The notes under the pieces are model-generated. The model made no database searches. It had not been told where the DNA came from and saw nothing but the letters and a program-made list of their open reading frames with translations. The position numbers and the translations under genes are program-made. From Entophlyctis helioformis (taxonomy: Eukaryota; Chytridiomycota; Chytridiomycetes; Chytridiales; Chytriomycetaceae): a stretch of 64,000 nt of DNA. Location of the stretch: positions 1 to 64,000 of the forward strand of contig JAHLKH010000001.1 of the NCBI GenBank assembly GCA_025526915.1, written 5' to 3'. Shown here one piece after another: positions 50,508 to 57,343 of the stretch (positions are counted from its first letter, which is position 1; every line of letters begins with the position of its first letter).

Positions 50508-52860
50508 TCATTCGCCATGCTTGCGATCGTACTCTGTCGCGGTGCCAAAGCGCACCACACGCGCCATTTCCCTCGCTGCCAGCTCGCCAAAGTCCTGGCC
50601 ACGGTACACCCGTGCACTCTCGAGATCAATGATGCGCGCCTTGCGCTCATCGCCCTGCCCAACAAAGACAACATTGCCCGAGTGCAAGTCGCCGTGCAAG
50701 ATGTGGCGGGCGTGCAGCCTGCTGAGGGCGTGTGCCGCAAGGCTGCGATCTGCATCCGACCAGGACTGACAAGACTGGCCAAGTTCCATGACAAGGAATG
50801 CGCAGTCGCGGGACACCACCGCCTCGACCACTAGCGGGATCGCGTCGCCTTGCAGGTCCTTGTGCTTGTCATAAAACAGCGTCTCGTTGCGGATGGCCTG
50901 ATAGTTCGTATTGTCGTAAAAGGTAAAAGAAACGCCCTTGATGGCCACCCGCTGGCCGTCCAGGCATCCGACAAACCCGGCACCTGTTCGGCCTCGTGCA
51001 ATGGCGTTATGGAGGTTCAAGACAGTCTTGACACTCTCCTTGCCAAGCACAAGGCTGACGCCGCTGTCGAGGCTCGTCATGACCTTGCCGCCGCCACAGG
51101 GGCATCGCCGAGTGTCCGTCTTGCAGATCTCGATCGCACAGTGGCGATACAATCCGCGTCCATCTCGGACAAATGATGCGGACGCAGGGCCGAGCGCAGC
51201 CTGAAGCGCAGGCGGCGGAGAACCGTATCCCGCCGCCTCGAGCTGGAATGCGTAAATGGCAAAGAAAAGCCCGCGCCGTAGGGAGAGTCGACCTTTGGTA
51301 TCACACAGCAGCGACTTGGAGACCAAGAACGAGTACTCGCCGTTCACATTTGGGCCACGCTTGACAAACCAGGAATGCTTGTATGTCGAAAGGATGCCAC
51401 ACTTGACCTTGGTGGTGATCATGTAGCAGATCAGCTGGTGAAGACAAGTCGCGGCCTGGCTGGTGCTTGCAGCTTGACTGGTGGCTGCGCGTTTGTTCTT
51501 GGCATCCTTTGCGCCACGTTCAGCTTTGGGTGTTGCGTATGATTTGTGCTGGCGAGCAATCCAATGCAAAAGGTCTTGCGGCGTATGCTCCATCAGGCTG
51601 CCGACGCTGTTTGGCACCTTCATCTCGATGGCGACGAGATACTTGGTGCTGTCCATAACCAAAAGATCCGGGCGGCCTTTGGTAACGTGGTACTCGGGGA
51701 CCACATCCAGCGTCTTCTCACCAGGCTTGGTTGTCTCAATTAGGTCCTGGATGATCTGCTGATAGCTGCTCGTGAGGCACGCCTCGTTAAAAACCGTCGA
51801 GTGTCGCATCCTTCTCTCGATGCGTTCGGCGCTTTCCAAGCTCCTGGAGATGAGGCGGGCGGCATATGTGAGCTCAAGTATGCATTGAGCTGCCAGATGG
51901 ATGTGGACTTACACATCACGATTGCTGCCATTGCGAATCAGCTCTTCAGAGCTGTTCGAGACACAATCATCAAAGTCGGCCCACAAGCTCAGATGAACCG
52001 TTGCAGCTGTTACTGTTACTGTTTCGTTCCGAATCTGAAAGTTGAGCGGGACCATAGTCGGGCCGTCCGTATCATCGCCTTGACGGATACTGAAAAAGAT
52101 GAGACTGTCCTTGTCGAACACAAGTTCGTCTGTTCGTGGCCGCTTGCTGCTGCTTGACGACGATGACGATGATGACGACTGCGGCGGCGGCTGCGGCTGC
52201 TCTGTCGGCATGCATTCCATGGGCGGATCGCTTGGCGAAAGGTTTTCAAGGCCGTCGCTCAGGCCGGAGGCGCTCTGCGGCGTGTTCGCCCCCGATCCAG
52301 CCGCAGAGCCTGACTGCAGCAGCCTGGTATGCCCAGCAAGATTGTGAATGACTCCACATGGGATGTGCCTGTCGAGGTACGCGCCAAACGTGCCTGATAA
52401 CAGCCTGTGGTCAGTGTCCAAGCGCGTCACAACAGCAAGTGCACATGGCAGGGCAAGGCAAGACAGCCAACATACACTTTGTCGCATTGATCTCATTTTC
52501 GAGCCGCTGGGTCTCGGCCTGCAGCGCTGCGCTCTCGGCCATCTTCTGAGCGAGTTCGGTTGTCTTCTGAGCGAGCTCGGCCGTCTTCTGATTGAGTGCG
52601 GCATTCAGCTGTTGGATGGTTTCAAATAGGTGAGACAACTGCTGTTGTTGCTGCTGCGCCTGTCGCTCATTTCTGTTCAACGCCTCTTGCAGCAGCTGTG
52701 CCATCAGCGCTTCGCCGGCAGGCAGTGCCTGCAGTTGCTGCTGAAGAAGAGGTTGCTGCTGTAGTTGCTGCTGACCCAGAGGAGCATCGGCAGGCAGCTG
52801 GTTGCTGTCGTTGTTGTTGTCGTTGTTCCCACCGTGGCCATTCACGCTGTTGTTCGACAT
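50508..52860 (-). CDS. Crinkler-like protein: coiled coil, PD-(D/E)XK nuclease, protein kinase
   Basis: Three exons (52860-52476, 52393-51913, 51843-50508) join in frame to 733 residues. Residues 1-130: Asn/Gln-rich then heptads (KTAELAQKTTELAQKMAESA). Residues 130-290: GTFGAYLDRHIPCGVIHNLA, a Ser run followed by KRPRTDE (possible nuclear signal), and a beta-rich segment. About 290-500: restriction-endonuclease fold with KGRPDLLVMDSTKYLVAIEM, that is, Asp then E-x-K (EMK). About 560-733: kinase with RVAIKG (ATP Lys), LVMELGQS, HILHGDLHSGNVVF (catalytic Asp, Asn) and IIDLESARVY in place of DFG. Nuclease plus kinase fusions are known among Crinkler (CRN) effectors of oomycetes and chytrids. No signal peptide or LFLAK header is seen, so an intracellular conflict role is equally possible. 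All catalytic positions look intact. Confidence 0.8.
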
Positions 52861-53036
52861 TGTGGCGTGGGGTTTTGCACAAGTGGTGGAAACCATTACT
52901 CCTGGCGGAATACTCCTGATTGGTCGAAATTGAGAGTCGTGCGCTGATTGGCCTTTTTGAGAGTCGTGCGTTGATTGGCACAGCAACGACTCACAATGCC
53001 AGATCCAGCCGCTGCGTGATGCGAGCACGGCGATGA
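52861..53036. promoter_or_regulatory. Promoter region of the nuclease-kinase gene with repeated CCAAT boxes
   Basis: 176 bp between the nuclease-kinase start (-) and the Fanzor-like fragment (+). Read on the minus strand it holds three CCAAT boxes, two of them inside a direct repeat (52930-52952 and 52957-52979). The region is AT-richer than its surroundings. Confidence 0.5.
52930..52979. repeat. 23-bp direct repeat, two copies, 27-bp period
   Basis: Copies at 52930-52952 and 52957-52979 differ at one base. Each contains TGATTGGC, a CCAAT box for the minus-strand gene starting at 52860. Confidence 0.85.
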
Positions 53037-53525
53037 GTTGTTGTCTGGGCATTTGGCATTGACTTTACAGGCCAAGGTGGCCGGCACGCTGTGTTTGAGA
53101 AGTTTCTCATCAGGCATCTGCGGTCGTCTGGATATGCCTATGTGCGTCTGATGCCACGCTGTCCATCCATCCATCCATCTGTGCACCAACTGACACACAC
53201 ACACCACACACACACACACACAACACACACACACACACACACACAGATCTACCGCTGCAACGAGAACCTGACCAGCCAGATGTGCCCGCAGTGCAAGCAA
53301 CGGATCCCAGACGAGAACCGCACCAACCTGCGACGCTACGAGTGCACAGCATGCAAGGCCGTCTACCACCGCGATGTGCTTGGAGCCACCAACATCGGGA
53401 TGGTCGCACTGTGGCATTTGCTCGATGGACAACGGCCGCTCTACTTGACGCACACGCCAGCCAGTCAGCCTGTCAACAGCATCGCAGCAGTGTCCTCCAC
53501 AGACACAGCACGTCACTCCATGTGA
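53037..53525 (+). pseudogene. Fanzor/TnpB-like nuclease, C-terminal fragment (zinc ribbon and RuvC-III)
   Basis: Two exons (53037-53141 and 53247-53525) join in phase. Exon A reads VVVWAFGIDFTGQGGRHAVF then EKFLIRHLRSSGYAY; exon B starts IYRCNENLTSQMCPQCKQ. Seen: the TnpB/Cas12f-type ribbon (NENLTSQ, MCPQC and YECTAC), the RuvC-III motif HRDVLGATNI with its Asp, and the usual fungal ending LLDGQRPLYL. These belong to the Cas12f1-like TNB domain of eukaryotic TnpB relatives (Fanzors), RNA-guided DNA nucleases of mobile elements. A TGA at 53034 precedes exon A, and no RuvC-I Asp, RuvC-II Glu or wedge domain was found upstream, where the divergent nuclease-kinase promoter lies. It is most likely a truncated relic; expression as a small protein cannot be excluded. 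Confidence 0.82.
53191..53246. repeat. (CA)n tract in the Fanzor-like intron
   Basis: Imperfect CA microsatellite that forms the 3' part of the 105-bp intron; read through, it gives an artificial Thr-His run. Confidence 0.8.
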
Positions 53526-53552
53526 CTTCCAGCACAACTACCAACACTTTGA

Positions 53553-53570
53553 ATCGGGGAACCTCCCGAT
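53553..53570 (+). other. Stem-loop just downstream of the Fanzor-like gene
   Basis: ATCGGG and CCCGAT pair perfectly around a six-base loop, 28 bp after the Fanzor-like stop. In TnpB and Fanzor loci the guide RNA comes from the 3' end of the gene and the element's right end, so this is a candidate remnant of such a structure. The stem is short and could be chance. Confidence 0.3.
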
Positions 53571-53785
53571 CGACCAAACGGGTCACTTTTTCTAACGATA
53601 AAGGTGAGCACTTCGTTGGATGTGCCTCGCCCGCTGTCGTCGCATGTTCTTTGCTGACTCGAACCTTCCATCGTGTGATACGCGGGCATCTATTCGACGC
53701 CTCTTGCGACGAATTTAATTCCAAAACGCTTGGTAATTGTAAGAAGAACGGGCCAATTCAACGACAGGTTCATTCCATGGCTGAC

Positions 53786-56700
53786 TTATGCAGCAGCAGG
53801 TGGCTCGCGGGCCGTCACAGATCCGCGAGGAGTCGCACTTGCAGACGCTGCAGGCGTGACCGCAGAAGCAGATGCCAGCAGGCCGCGCTCGCATGCCGAG
53901 TCAATGAGTGCAGCCATGTCAGCAACCGACACGATGCGTGCGGCTGTGGATGCGTCGTACTCGGCCACAACCGTCTCGACAAATGCCTGGTAGTTGTCCA
54001 GGATCTGGCTCTGCATTCACGCAAGCGTCAGTGGCATGCGTAAAGGCTGGACGGTGGGCCGTGCCGCAACTTACGCGTATGATGCGGATCAGCACCGCCT
54101 GCGTCTTCTTGTCTCCAATGTAGTCCGACATGCGTGTGACAGTCGCCACCAGTCGCCGCTGCGTCGTCTCCTTGAACGCTTCAAACACAACACCAATCTG
54201 GTCTACAGGACATAGTGCAGCCATCAGTATCAAAGGCAGACAGATGCATGCCAATGTCACCGGCAACTCACTTGGCTGTGCAAAGCTCTGGTTCTGGAGC
54301 GTGTCGCGGCTGGCAGGCGGACGCGCGTCGTTGCGCAGTCGAAACGCGGATACCTTGAGCATAAACGATGCCACTGGCTCAACGGCACCCTTGGCCGTCT
54401 CCAGGATCAGGTCTTCGCACGTGCGTCTGAGATCACGTCCAAGGGCCTCGTTGGCGTCCGCATAGCTCTGAATGACTCTTGGCGCCGATGCTGCTGCCAT
54501 GATTGCGCCACTGAACGACATGAGTGGTGCGCGCCAGCTGTTCTTGATGACATCGCGCACTGCCTCGAGCATCTCGCTGTAGTTGAGCGTCTCTTCGCGG
54601 CGTACAAAGCGGGCATCAAACGACGAGATCTGCTCGCGGAGCATGAGCAGGTTCTTGATGAGGAACAGCTGGCCATCGAGCTTGGTTTGCTTGCTCGTGA
54701 GCACATCAGCCGCTGCGAGCAGCGTCGTTCTGCATGCATCCACAGCCTCCTGCGCAAGATCCTCAAAGATGGGTCTCTGTTCATCCATGCACGCACAAAG
54801 GTCAGGATATGCGCTGCGCGTGTCGGTGCAATACACGCAGAGTGCAACGTACGGGAACTGCGCCGTAGAGGCGTCCAAGAAGATACAGTGTCCGCTGCAT
54901 GGTTGGGTACCATTCGCCTCCGCCATATGCGAGCTTGCCAATCACAAACGAGCTGGCTGCTTCGGCCTCTGTGACGTCAAAGGCAGCCTCCAAGTTGGGC
55001 GACAGCAATGCCGATGGACTGCGTGCAGTCATATCAGCCCCCGACGCGACAGAAGACGAGGGCGGATTGATCGACTCGTTGAGCATTGGCGTCACGCCAA
55101 CACTGAGATTGATGGACATGGGTTGCGGCACTGTCCATCGGCCACGCAACGGTCAGCACGTCCAGCTCTCATACAGCAAGGGCCAGACAGGCAAGGAACC
55201 GTACATCCGCGGCCACGCGCCAGAACAAGCAGCTCTTCTTCACGCGGCTTGAACTTTTGTAGCTCCTGCTGGATGAATGCCTCTGCACGGAACACCAGAC
55301 GCTGCTGTGCATCTTCCAGGATCTTTTGCACAATGAACTTGACCGGCGCAGTGTTGGCTTGGGCAGATGCGCCAGTGTCGCCAGCAGCCTGGGTCTGCGG
55401 CTCCATGGTCTTGAGATAGCTCAGCAGCGACTGGCACATGTCTGACAGCGTGTCGATCTTGAGTTCGCGCAAGATGAGCGGCCGCAGCTGGTCGTACAAA
55501 CCAGTGGCTAGTGACTCGAGGTAGCTCCTGCAGCTTGGCTGTCAGCGCTGGATTGGATGCGGCAGTGACTCGGTAGGCGTCGCGTGCACTCACAAAACCT
55601 CCTCTTCACCAAGAGTAAAGAATTGGCGGAACAGCTGGTACTCGTCTGCACACAGACGGATCATGTACGCGCATCCGTTGGCAACCTTTTAGGAGCAGTC
55701 AGAGTCGGTGAACCAAATGCTGTGAGCCCGACGATAGACGATTGACGGTTGATAAAGCAGGCGGCTCGAGCGACATACAAAGTCAAGCAGGCTCGCATTG
55801 TTGATGGACCGAATGTGCTCAGAGATGAATGGCGTCAGAAGCGTGCGCCGCACAACAAAGTAGGCAGAAAAGCAGTCGCGAAGCAGCGCCAGATATCTGT
55901 GCAAGACAAGCCGGTCAGTCTATCATGTTGATACCAAATGGCATCAGAGGCACATCATTCGTACTCGGCGTGTCTGGAGCAACGCTCCTCGACCTCTGCA
56001 ATCAGGCCCTTGACCTTGAGAGCCTGCGTGCGGAACTTGACATAGAACAGAGTTAACTGCATGTTGGCAGCAAGCGGCTCGTGTGTTTGCTGAGGAGCGC
56101 AAGACGTTCATCAAGCGAGAGTCAGTCACAGGCACCCAGCGCGATCGTTGGTGGCCACCTGCAACTCACACGTCCAGCAAGCTTTTCGCGAATGTCATTC
56201 TGCAACGCGCGAATGTTGTCAACAAAGTGCATCTTGATGAGCGTCATGCACCGAGTCATGCACTGTCTGTAGCGCATGCGGTACACTTCTGCGTCCTTGT
56301 AGTGTGGCTGGACATTCCTGTCAGTGGCACATAAAACACGGCTCCTTTGGACGGCCGGGTACAATGCACCACGTACGTGATCAAGCACAAAGGCCAAGCA
56401 CTGGTCCAGTTTCTGCAGCATGGGGCCAAACTTGTCGTCCATGACGATTGTCTCGCCAGGAGCACTAAGCATCTTGGTGATGGGGTCCAGCTCGTTAAAG
56501 TATGCGAGCTTGGCAGCCAGCTCTTCAGCGACACTGATCAGATGCGTCTAAATCGTCCATGTTGGATCCGCCACAGTCGTTACCATCACAGCATGCGGAC
56601 GGCAGATGAAGTCGGGATTGCAGCTACGCACCTGCTCGTCCAGCAGGGTCTCGCAGGCCTGCTGCAAGCCCTTGGTCTTTTCCTCGACAAAGTTGTAGTT

Positions 56701-57343
56701 GCGCTCCAGATCGTCCAGAAACGCATGCGTCTCTTCTGTCTTGGACAGGATCTCGACCGTAGCCTGCCTGTACCCTCTCATCGTGGCCAAATATGCTCTG
56801 TTGGCGCAGCCCGCACTGTCAGTCATCCGTGCTCTGTGCCCATGGATCTGGCCGGCCAGCTGGCCAACGCCACACCACGCCACGCCACGCCATGCCAAGA
56901 TACCTGTAGATGTCCTCCTGGCCTCGTTCCATCTCCTCTTCGACCTTGGCGAACCAGGCAAGGAACTGCTGGGTGGTTTCGATGGTGGACTCAATGGTGG
57001 CGACTGCTGGGCCGTTGGATGTGCTTGGCCTGGCAGTGGCTGGCAAAGACTGCAGAGCGTTGCTAGCAGCAGAAGCAGAAGCAGCAGCAGTGCCGTCGCT
57101 GGCGTCGTCGAGCATGGCAGACGCCTGCAGCGCAGCCAGCTGTTCAAGGCGGGTCAGCCACCAGCTACAGCAGCAGCAGCAGCAGCAGCCGAGCGACTGG
57201 CGTGCACATACCTCCAGCGGCACAGGCAGTTCGGCCGAGAGGCCCTGCAGGAAGGCGATGCTCTCCAGCTGCTTGTCTGCAAGGCTCGCACGGCTCTCCC
57301 ACTCCTCAAACGCACGCAGAGGCGCCAACGCAGCTGCCGACAT
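53786..57343 (-). CDS. COG3: Conserved oligomeric Golgi complex subunit 3
   Basis: COG3/Sec34 belongs to lobe A of the COG tethering complex for retrograde traffic within the Golgi. Many exons. From the N-terminus: MSAAALAPLRAFEEWESRAS (57343), TQQFLAWFAKVEEEMERGQE, then YRQATVEILSKTEETHAFLD and YNFVEEKTKGLQQACETLLD (56700), typical of the Sec34 N-terminal domain. LAYFNELDPITKMLSAPGE, YRMRYRQCMTRCMTLIKMHF, MYDQLRPLILRELKIDTLSD and DAQQRLVFRAEAFIQQEL follow. Near the C-terminus is KLDGQLFLIKNLLMLREQIS, the strongest family match. It ends REPPAAA. An upstream in-frame ATG at 57424 (MSYEHDARR) would add 27 residues. Exon borders are approximate. Confidence 0.9.

Follow-up and report, generated by a model that had tools for sequence, protein, structure and literature searches.

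A probable relic of a Fanzor-related DNA transposon family in the chytrid Entophlyctis helioformis

The 64-kb stretch of Entophlyctis helioformis DNA analysed here (the window) very probably contains, at about 52888-53754, a non-coding relic of a DNA transposon family of this chytrid in the form of an internally deleted copy of about 0.88 kb (877 bases between its paired ends). Among the observations that carry this reading are a TnpB-type profile match above its cut-off, a match to the family's left end inside the window, and a deletion junction that is shared at three loci. The long copies of the family, which we followed through the genome (29.57 Mb in 482 contigs), encode a predicted protein that is related to Fanzors and differs from them in its RuvC-I motif.

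Anatomy of the window copy

The window carries the C-terminal module of a TnpB/Fanzor-type protein, split by an intron, at 53037-53525. An earlier note based on the letters of the window had recognised here a four-cysteine ribbon (CPQC...CTAC), the RuvC-III motif RDVLGATNI and a terminal RPLYL, and all of these are present where it had placed them. The fragment matches Pfam PF07282 (Cas12f1-like_TNB) at an E-value of 3.1e-10 and with 40.5 bits against a curated cut-off of 26.3, which assigns it to the TnpB superfamily by its TNB domain, and TNB is the sole Pfam family above cut-off both here and in the spliced region of the long copy L030 (44.8 bits). On the same stretch, the NCBIfam models guided_TnpB (8.5e-07) and IS200_TnpB (1.2e-06) scored below the cut-offs of these full-length models, and a PDB search with the fragment alone returned TnpB-like L79 at 0.12. 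Other ribbon profiles matched weakly, the best being zf-CRD at 0.00036 and under its own cut-off. Along the plus strand, the copy is composed of the following features:

52888..52927, plus strand: left end, consisting of the inner portion of the left inverted repeat plus the first ATTGG (CCAAT-box) repeat (left-end pattern with 2 mismatches; control 0)
52978..53019, plus strand: leader of the left end, in which the element's first ORF begins (52978-53015, 38 bases, is 84-87% identical to three left ends)
53030..53040, plus strand: proposed internal-deletion junction, where the left end meets the final third of the penultimate exon (homology to long copies from ~53040)
53037..53141, plus strand: last part of the penultimate exon (VWAFGIDFTGQGGRHAVFEKFLIRHLRSSGYAY; alignment with 8 long copies)
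53142..53246, plus strand: intron GTGCGT...CACAG with CA repeats (the same in 8 aligned copies; splice of gene model P0005)
53247..53525, plus strand: last exon with the alternative RuvC-II glutamate, four-Cys ribbon, RuvC-III aspartate, RPLYL and tail (Pfam TNB; signature at 53262-53375)
53526..53728, plus strand: conserved 3' noncoding block (alignment of 37 right ends)
53729..53754, plus strand: right inverted repeat CTTGGTAATTGTAAGAAGAACGGGCC, which differs from the family pattern (right-end reads)

The CA-rich intron described earlier is thus shared with the long copies, and the database gene model P0005 splices at the same place (between SSGYAY and IYRCNENL). Across all six frames of the window, the Fanzor signature ExxxxxxCxxCx(12,18)CxxCx(4,8)D, as published in passages of PMC10711439, has a single match, whereas 40 three-base-block shuffles of the window gave a mean of 0.025 matches. 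Its glutamate is the E of CNENLTSQMC, with its codon at 53262 and six residues before the CxxC. Both the alternative RuvC-II glutamate and the RuvC-III aspartate therefore lie inside the fragment, which keeps two of the three RuvC acidic residues, and the former statement that the upstream catalytic residues are missing applies to RuvC-I alone. The protein of about 127 residues proposed at the time fared less well: its frame is present but preceded by a TGA at 53034-53036, and since no ATG lies in frame within the first exon piece, such a protein cannot start from an ATG there. No claim about Fanzor activity is possible from sequence alone.

Upstream of the exon, homology to the left end of the family comes in two short pieces (52892-52927 and 52978-53015), and in the region 52888..52927, 28-36 bases align with the left ends of L030 and L038 at 80-89% identity. 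Of the left repeat, the outermost 14-16 bases are lost or replaced; no target duplication was seen at the flanks of the window copy, where the outer left repeat is mismatched. The missing duplication, this mismatch and the brevity of the two pieces count against the main explanation. The element's first ORF begins with an ATG at 52996 and meets a stop (TGA) at 53017-53019. Homology then jumps from the left end to the final third of the penultimate exon, which marks the window copy as internally deleted; we propose that the left end was fused to that exon part and the rest removed. An identical junction is present in L067 and L068. According to the earlier note, the promoter of the divergent nuclease-kinase gene occupies the place of the missing upstream part. 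However, pieces of the element's left end with its start-codon region adjoin the exon directly, which argues for an internal deletion and not for plain promoter replacement, and what stands of this claim is that the promoter is at least partly the left end itself.

The other paired copy below 1 kb, L069 (989 bases; C35:164440-165560), has both ends and a target duplication matching at 7/8 positions. Its left breakpoint differs from that of the window copy and its right breakpoint is nearly the same (GTTGT[CG]TGGGC). At C44:149588, C128:18555, C25:58770 and C37:165939, short stretches of 45-85 bases match the left end or the junction of the window copy; these are possibly further copies of the deleted form.

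The transposon family and its long copies

The expectation that full-length copies exist elsewhere in the genome was borne out. There are at least 150 relatives of the last exon (255 candidates, 150 of them scored), and the matched stretch is free of stops in 149 of those scored. Copies share a sharp right end (...CTTGGTAATTGTATGAATATCGGGCC), whose pattern has 112 genome matches compared with 0 for the reversed-pattern control, and a left end (GGCCCGGTTCTCATACCATTACCCCTGG) followed by ATTGG repeats of 27-28 bases, with 88 genome matches within 2 mismatches, the window among them (control 0). The two ends are imperfect inverted repeats that begin with GGCCCG and agree at 20 of 28 bases. When 62 of the 88 left ends were compared with an incomplete list of right ends on the same strand and within 25 kb, a partner was found for 48; the 14 that stayed unpaired speak against the main explanation as far as this incomplete list goes. 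Lengths of the paired copies fall into 32 of 7.2-9.2 kb, 14 of 9.4-20.6 kb, which perhaps carry nested insertions, and the two short ones described above. Among 21 long loci, the right-end pattern is unmatched in three (L028, L033 and L038), and L038 has a variant end.

Target duplications of 8 bp flank the paired ends exactly in 4 of 16 pairs, with a 7/8 match in another 4 and a 6/8 match in one, while none of 240 mismatched pairings reached 7/8 and repeat lengths of 6, 7, 9 and 10 showed no excess like that at 8. Inverted repeats together with 8-bp duplications, as in cut-and-paste transposons of the hAT, KDZ, P and IS4 types, are therefore found for the family (8/16 pairs), not for the window copy. 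The remaining 7 pairs agree in at most 4 of 8 flanking positions, that is, they have no duplication, and these weigh against the main explanation, as do the right flanks: of the 36 that were read, 20 differ from one another and 16 open with a shared TTTGCCGGC-type sequence, which is either a longer end type or another repeat that served as target. This type of flank, full or partial, was seen in L021, L022, L023, L031, L032, L034 and L036 as well as in L055-L057, L059, L060 and L063-L066.

For each of two long copies, a simple gene model predicts a protein of about 2,000 residues from a gene with 14-15 introns; the model is approximate, because two frame steps were needed per copy and some late introns were missed. 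The C-terminal part of the predicted protein combines a motif D-W-G-x-R-Y-x-(Y/F)-G-A-S-S with the signature of alternative glutamate, ribbon and aspartate. The latter is present in 21/21 loci read, window included, and the RuvC-I pattern in 11 of the 21, a pattern that left out the FDWG form of L035, L036 and L040. RuvC-I reads DWG in all 8 long copies aligned, and not DPG, which is near exclusive among Fanzors in the relevant passages of PMC10711439. In the spliced L030 region, moreover, this DWG lies about 183 residues before the alternative glutamate (positions 37 and 221 of alignment A3), outside the 120-160 residues of the published Fanzor search pattern. That the fragment marks a Fanzor element, as the earlier note had it, holds for the TnpB/Fanzor-type module with its alternative glutamate but not for RuvC-I. 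Nothing significant was found when profile A3 of the RuvC region was compared with the PDB, and no database protein spanning this region was found.

At the N-terminus, the long protein has the motifs GLL, HVDxLS, FHVDG, YEAD and NDSDLVAH, which we take to recall XPG/FEN1 nucleases. Of 6 N-terminal database models, 4 were scanned, and XPG_I_2 was the top Pfam match in each, at E-values of 0.0047-0.014 and under cut-off; no XPG/PIN family profile exceeded its cut-off for this part of the protein. Genome searches with XPG_I (matches at C1:248008, on C43 and on C2) and XPG_I_2 (C1:247972 and C38) found nothing inside a paired element, PDB searches with the N-terminus gave no match, and the AlphaFold model of the N-terminal P0012 is too poor for a fold call (pLDDT 38.4). 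A PIN/XPG-like nuclease at the N-terminus is possible, perhaps probable. The long relatives, as predicted, are not ordinary Fanzor1 proteins: their RuvC-I is DWG, their length is about 2,000 residues, and they may have a second nuclease domain.

Differences between long copies are unevenly distributed. In the middle (~1.5-7.1 kb of L038), 20-51% of sites differ, often with a codon-position bias. For the left 1.5 kb, where the comparison is mainly between two copies, the figure is 1-15%, and for the DNA to the right of 7.1 kb, with introns counted in, it is mostly 1-22%, both with little codon bias; exceptions on the right are 30% in one block and 20-41% in the protein tail. With introns included in this likeness, the ends look homogenised at the DNA level. 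Between subfamilies, too, coordinates 1-1500 and 7110-9048 of L038 are much more alike than the middle, and gene conversion, template exchange or functional ends are possible reasons for this.

We infer from the ends that the long copies move by cut-and-paste, since no transposase was found in the element. In one long copy (L090), Pfam recognised no transposase domain in 49 of 49 listed frames; only TNB was above cut-off and an Integrase_1 match stayed below it (0.042). This makes a transposase acting in trans the likeliest arrangement. KDZ transposase matches exist in the genome, the best at 1.1e-15 and broken by stops, and KDZ elements of the Zisupton and Dileera types make 8-bp duplications (parts of PMC12730594), so that a KDZ transposase in trans is a candidate. 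The hAT dimer domain had no match in the genome, where the search control likewise matched nowhere.

Origin of the window copy and competing explanations

Loci on contigs C128 and C152 carry a stretch 98% identical to 52700-53045, a region that takes in the start of the divergent nuclease-kinase gene; both loci also share the window's deletion junction and adjoin nuclease-kinase matches. On the 3' side, their likeness to the window ends at ~53465, and 53521-53636 matches at 74%. Given this identity, the shared junction and the adjoining nuclease-kinase matches at three loci, a joint duplication of the gene and the dead element is probable. The window copy would thus probably have been carried in together with the gene and not by an insertion of its own, because its left repeat is damaged, a duplication is lacking and the pair occurs at three loci.

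The divergent gene itself (50508-52863, minus strand) has PD-(D/E)XK-like and protein-kinase-like parts in sub-threshold Pfam matches and 22 genome matches on 11 contigs. Next to it, the minus-strand frame at 49021-50424 matches an integrase core, a Tf2-1-like SH3 domain and a chromodomain below cut-off and is a putative Ty3/gypsy-type polyprotein fragment. On the other side lies a gene for subunit 3 of the conserved oligomeric Golgi complex (~53786-57153, minus strand; COG3_N and COG3_C over cut-off), the end of which is ~30 bases from the element's right end.

The 3' block (53526-53728) contains an invariant hairpin formed by ATCGGG (53553-53558) and CCCGAT (53565-53570) and could possibly be a guide-RNA scaffold. 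By analogy with SpuFz1 of Spizellomyces punctatus and with insect-virus Fanzor1, the predicted guide-RNA scaffold of which takes in the repeat and the duplication in passages of PMC10711439, the TnpB-like part would use RNA from the right end, cut matching sites and so help to keep the element in place. Within 53603-53658 of the window, the block also has donor-like letters AAG/GTGAGC (53604) and a branch-point-like TGCTGAC (53652-53658), and most of the 37 aligned right ends have similar letters. No clear splice acceptor was seen ahead of the right end, so that transcripts might splice into flanking DNA.

Several other explanations can be set against a deleted transposon copy, and one of them is compatible with it. 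The deleted element may have been taken over as a bidirectional promoter of the nuclease-kinase gene, with the CCAAT-box repeats driving it. This is conceivable though rather unlikely: the left end bears ATTGG repeats, and 52700-53045 is more alike at the three loci (98%) than the nuclease-kinase coding frame (74-90% in the longest matches), but recent duplication or gene conversion would account for this identity equally well, and other nuclease-kinase matches (e.g., on C60, C49, C153 and C10) have no match to 52700-53045. We give less credence to the broad proposal that one giant protein, joining PIN/XPG and TnpB-like RNA-guided RuvC parts, would serve a new superfamily as its own mobility and homing machine, with deleted copies acting as stand-alone guide-RNA donors. 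Slightly less probable again is that the window copy in particular is such a donor, its 3' block and right repeat being transcribed with a guide from 53755 onward for use by full-length proteins elsewhere. Conservation of the 3' block among the 37 right ends would fit, as would the short ghost copies in Spizellomyces punctatus, whose 3' end is related (parts of PMC10432273), and Fanzor1 guide RNAs that can include the inverted repeat and duplication (passages of PMC10711439). Yet covariation in the block is low, its pairs being nearly invariant, 5 of 60 column shuffles attain a consensus energy as good as that of the real alignment, transposon ends are conserved for other causes too, and the right repeat of the window has changes.

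The reading closest to that of the earlier note, a 5'-truncated retrocopy or gene fragment fused to an unrelated promoter, can point to the fact that most of the DNA upstream of 53037 is unlike the exons of the long copies. It is very improbable, and was dropped, in light of the retained intron, the left-end pieces directly upstream, and L069 with both ends and its near-complete duplication. Least credible of all is an unrelated zinc ribbon that merely resembles the TnpB module. The sub-threshold zf-CRD match and the lack of a solved structure matching the longer RuvC profile would suit it, but TNB as the sole family over cut-off, the exact spacing from alternative glutamate over ribbon to aspartate and the RuvC-I motif upstream in the long copies all contradict it. 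An internally deleted transposon copy is our preferred reading of this locus.

Comparison with known systems

As far as our searches go, the E. helioformis family is new. Protein searches, which depend on shared short words and similar length, found no relatives outside this species: the one with the long gene model had none among 1757 candidates at E 0.01, and the matches of the other two (8/8 and 6/6) all lie within E. helioformis. Nothing on a Fanzor with a PIN domain or with XPG was found among the papers searched, and the single one there that deals with Fanzor in a chytrid is that on SpuFz1. Fanzor genes in chytrid transposons with short ghost copies are already known (parts of PMC10432273), and so is a Fanzor element with 8-bp duplications (parts of PMC3627910). 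What the family adds is a genome in which more than 100 ends of a 7-9 kb transposon lie dispersed; its predicted protein of about 2,000 residues joins the Fanzor-type glutamate position to a TnpB-type RuvC-I and possibly to a second nuclease. DPG and the alternative glutamate, reported together in Fanzors, are thereby separated, and the short copies make the idea of guide donors testable.

With KDZ transposons such as Zisupton and Dileera, the family shares 8-bp duplications (parts of PMC12730594) and the genome has KDZ matches, but the one long copy examined has no KDZ domain and the best KDZ match contains stops. Prokaryotic TnpB proteins of IS200/IS605 and IS607 (NF040570, NF038281, NF038280) likewise have a four-Cys ribbon, RuvC-III and a RuvC-I of the form D-hydrophobic-G, a rule for TnpB given in passages of PMC10711439. 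In contrast to these, the glutamate of the E. helioformis family sits at the alternative site, six residues ahead of the ribbon, its gene is eukaryotic and rich in introns, and the element has inverted repeats and duplications. In Ectocarpus and its virus, IS4-type elements that bear Fanzor1 also unite a TnpB relative with inverted repeats and 8-bp duplications, as far as described in parts of PMC3627910; the likeness is in having repeats and duplications, and the one long copy examined showed no recognisable IS4-type transposase. Closest in host is Spizellomyces punctatus Fanzor1 (SpuFz1, with the ghost Spu-1), which, according to parts of PMC10432273, resembles our family in its chytrid host, a TnpB-type RuvC with TNB, many copies, inverted repeats and partial or ghost copies. 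SpuFz1 loci are ~2.1 kb long with a single ORF, 30-nt repeats and a demonstrated guide RNA, whereas the E. helioformis family has copies of 7-9 kb with an intron-rich gene for about 2,000 residues, DWG in place of DPG, a candidate guide RNA, GGCCCG repeats and 8-bp duplications.
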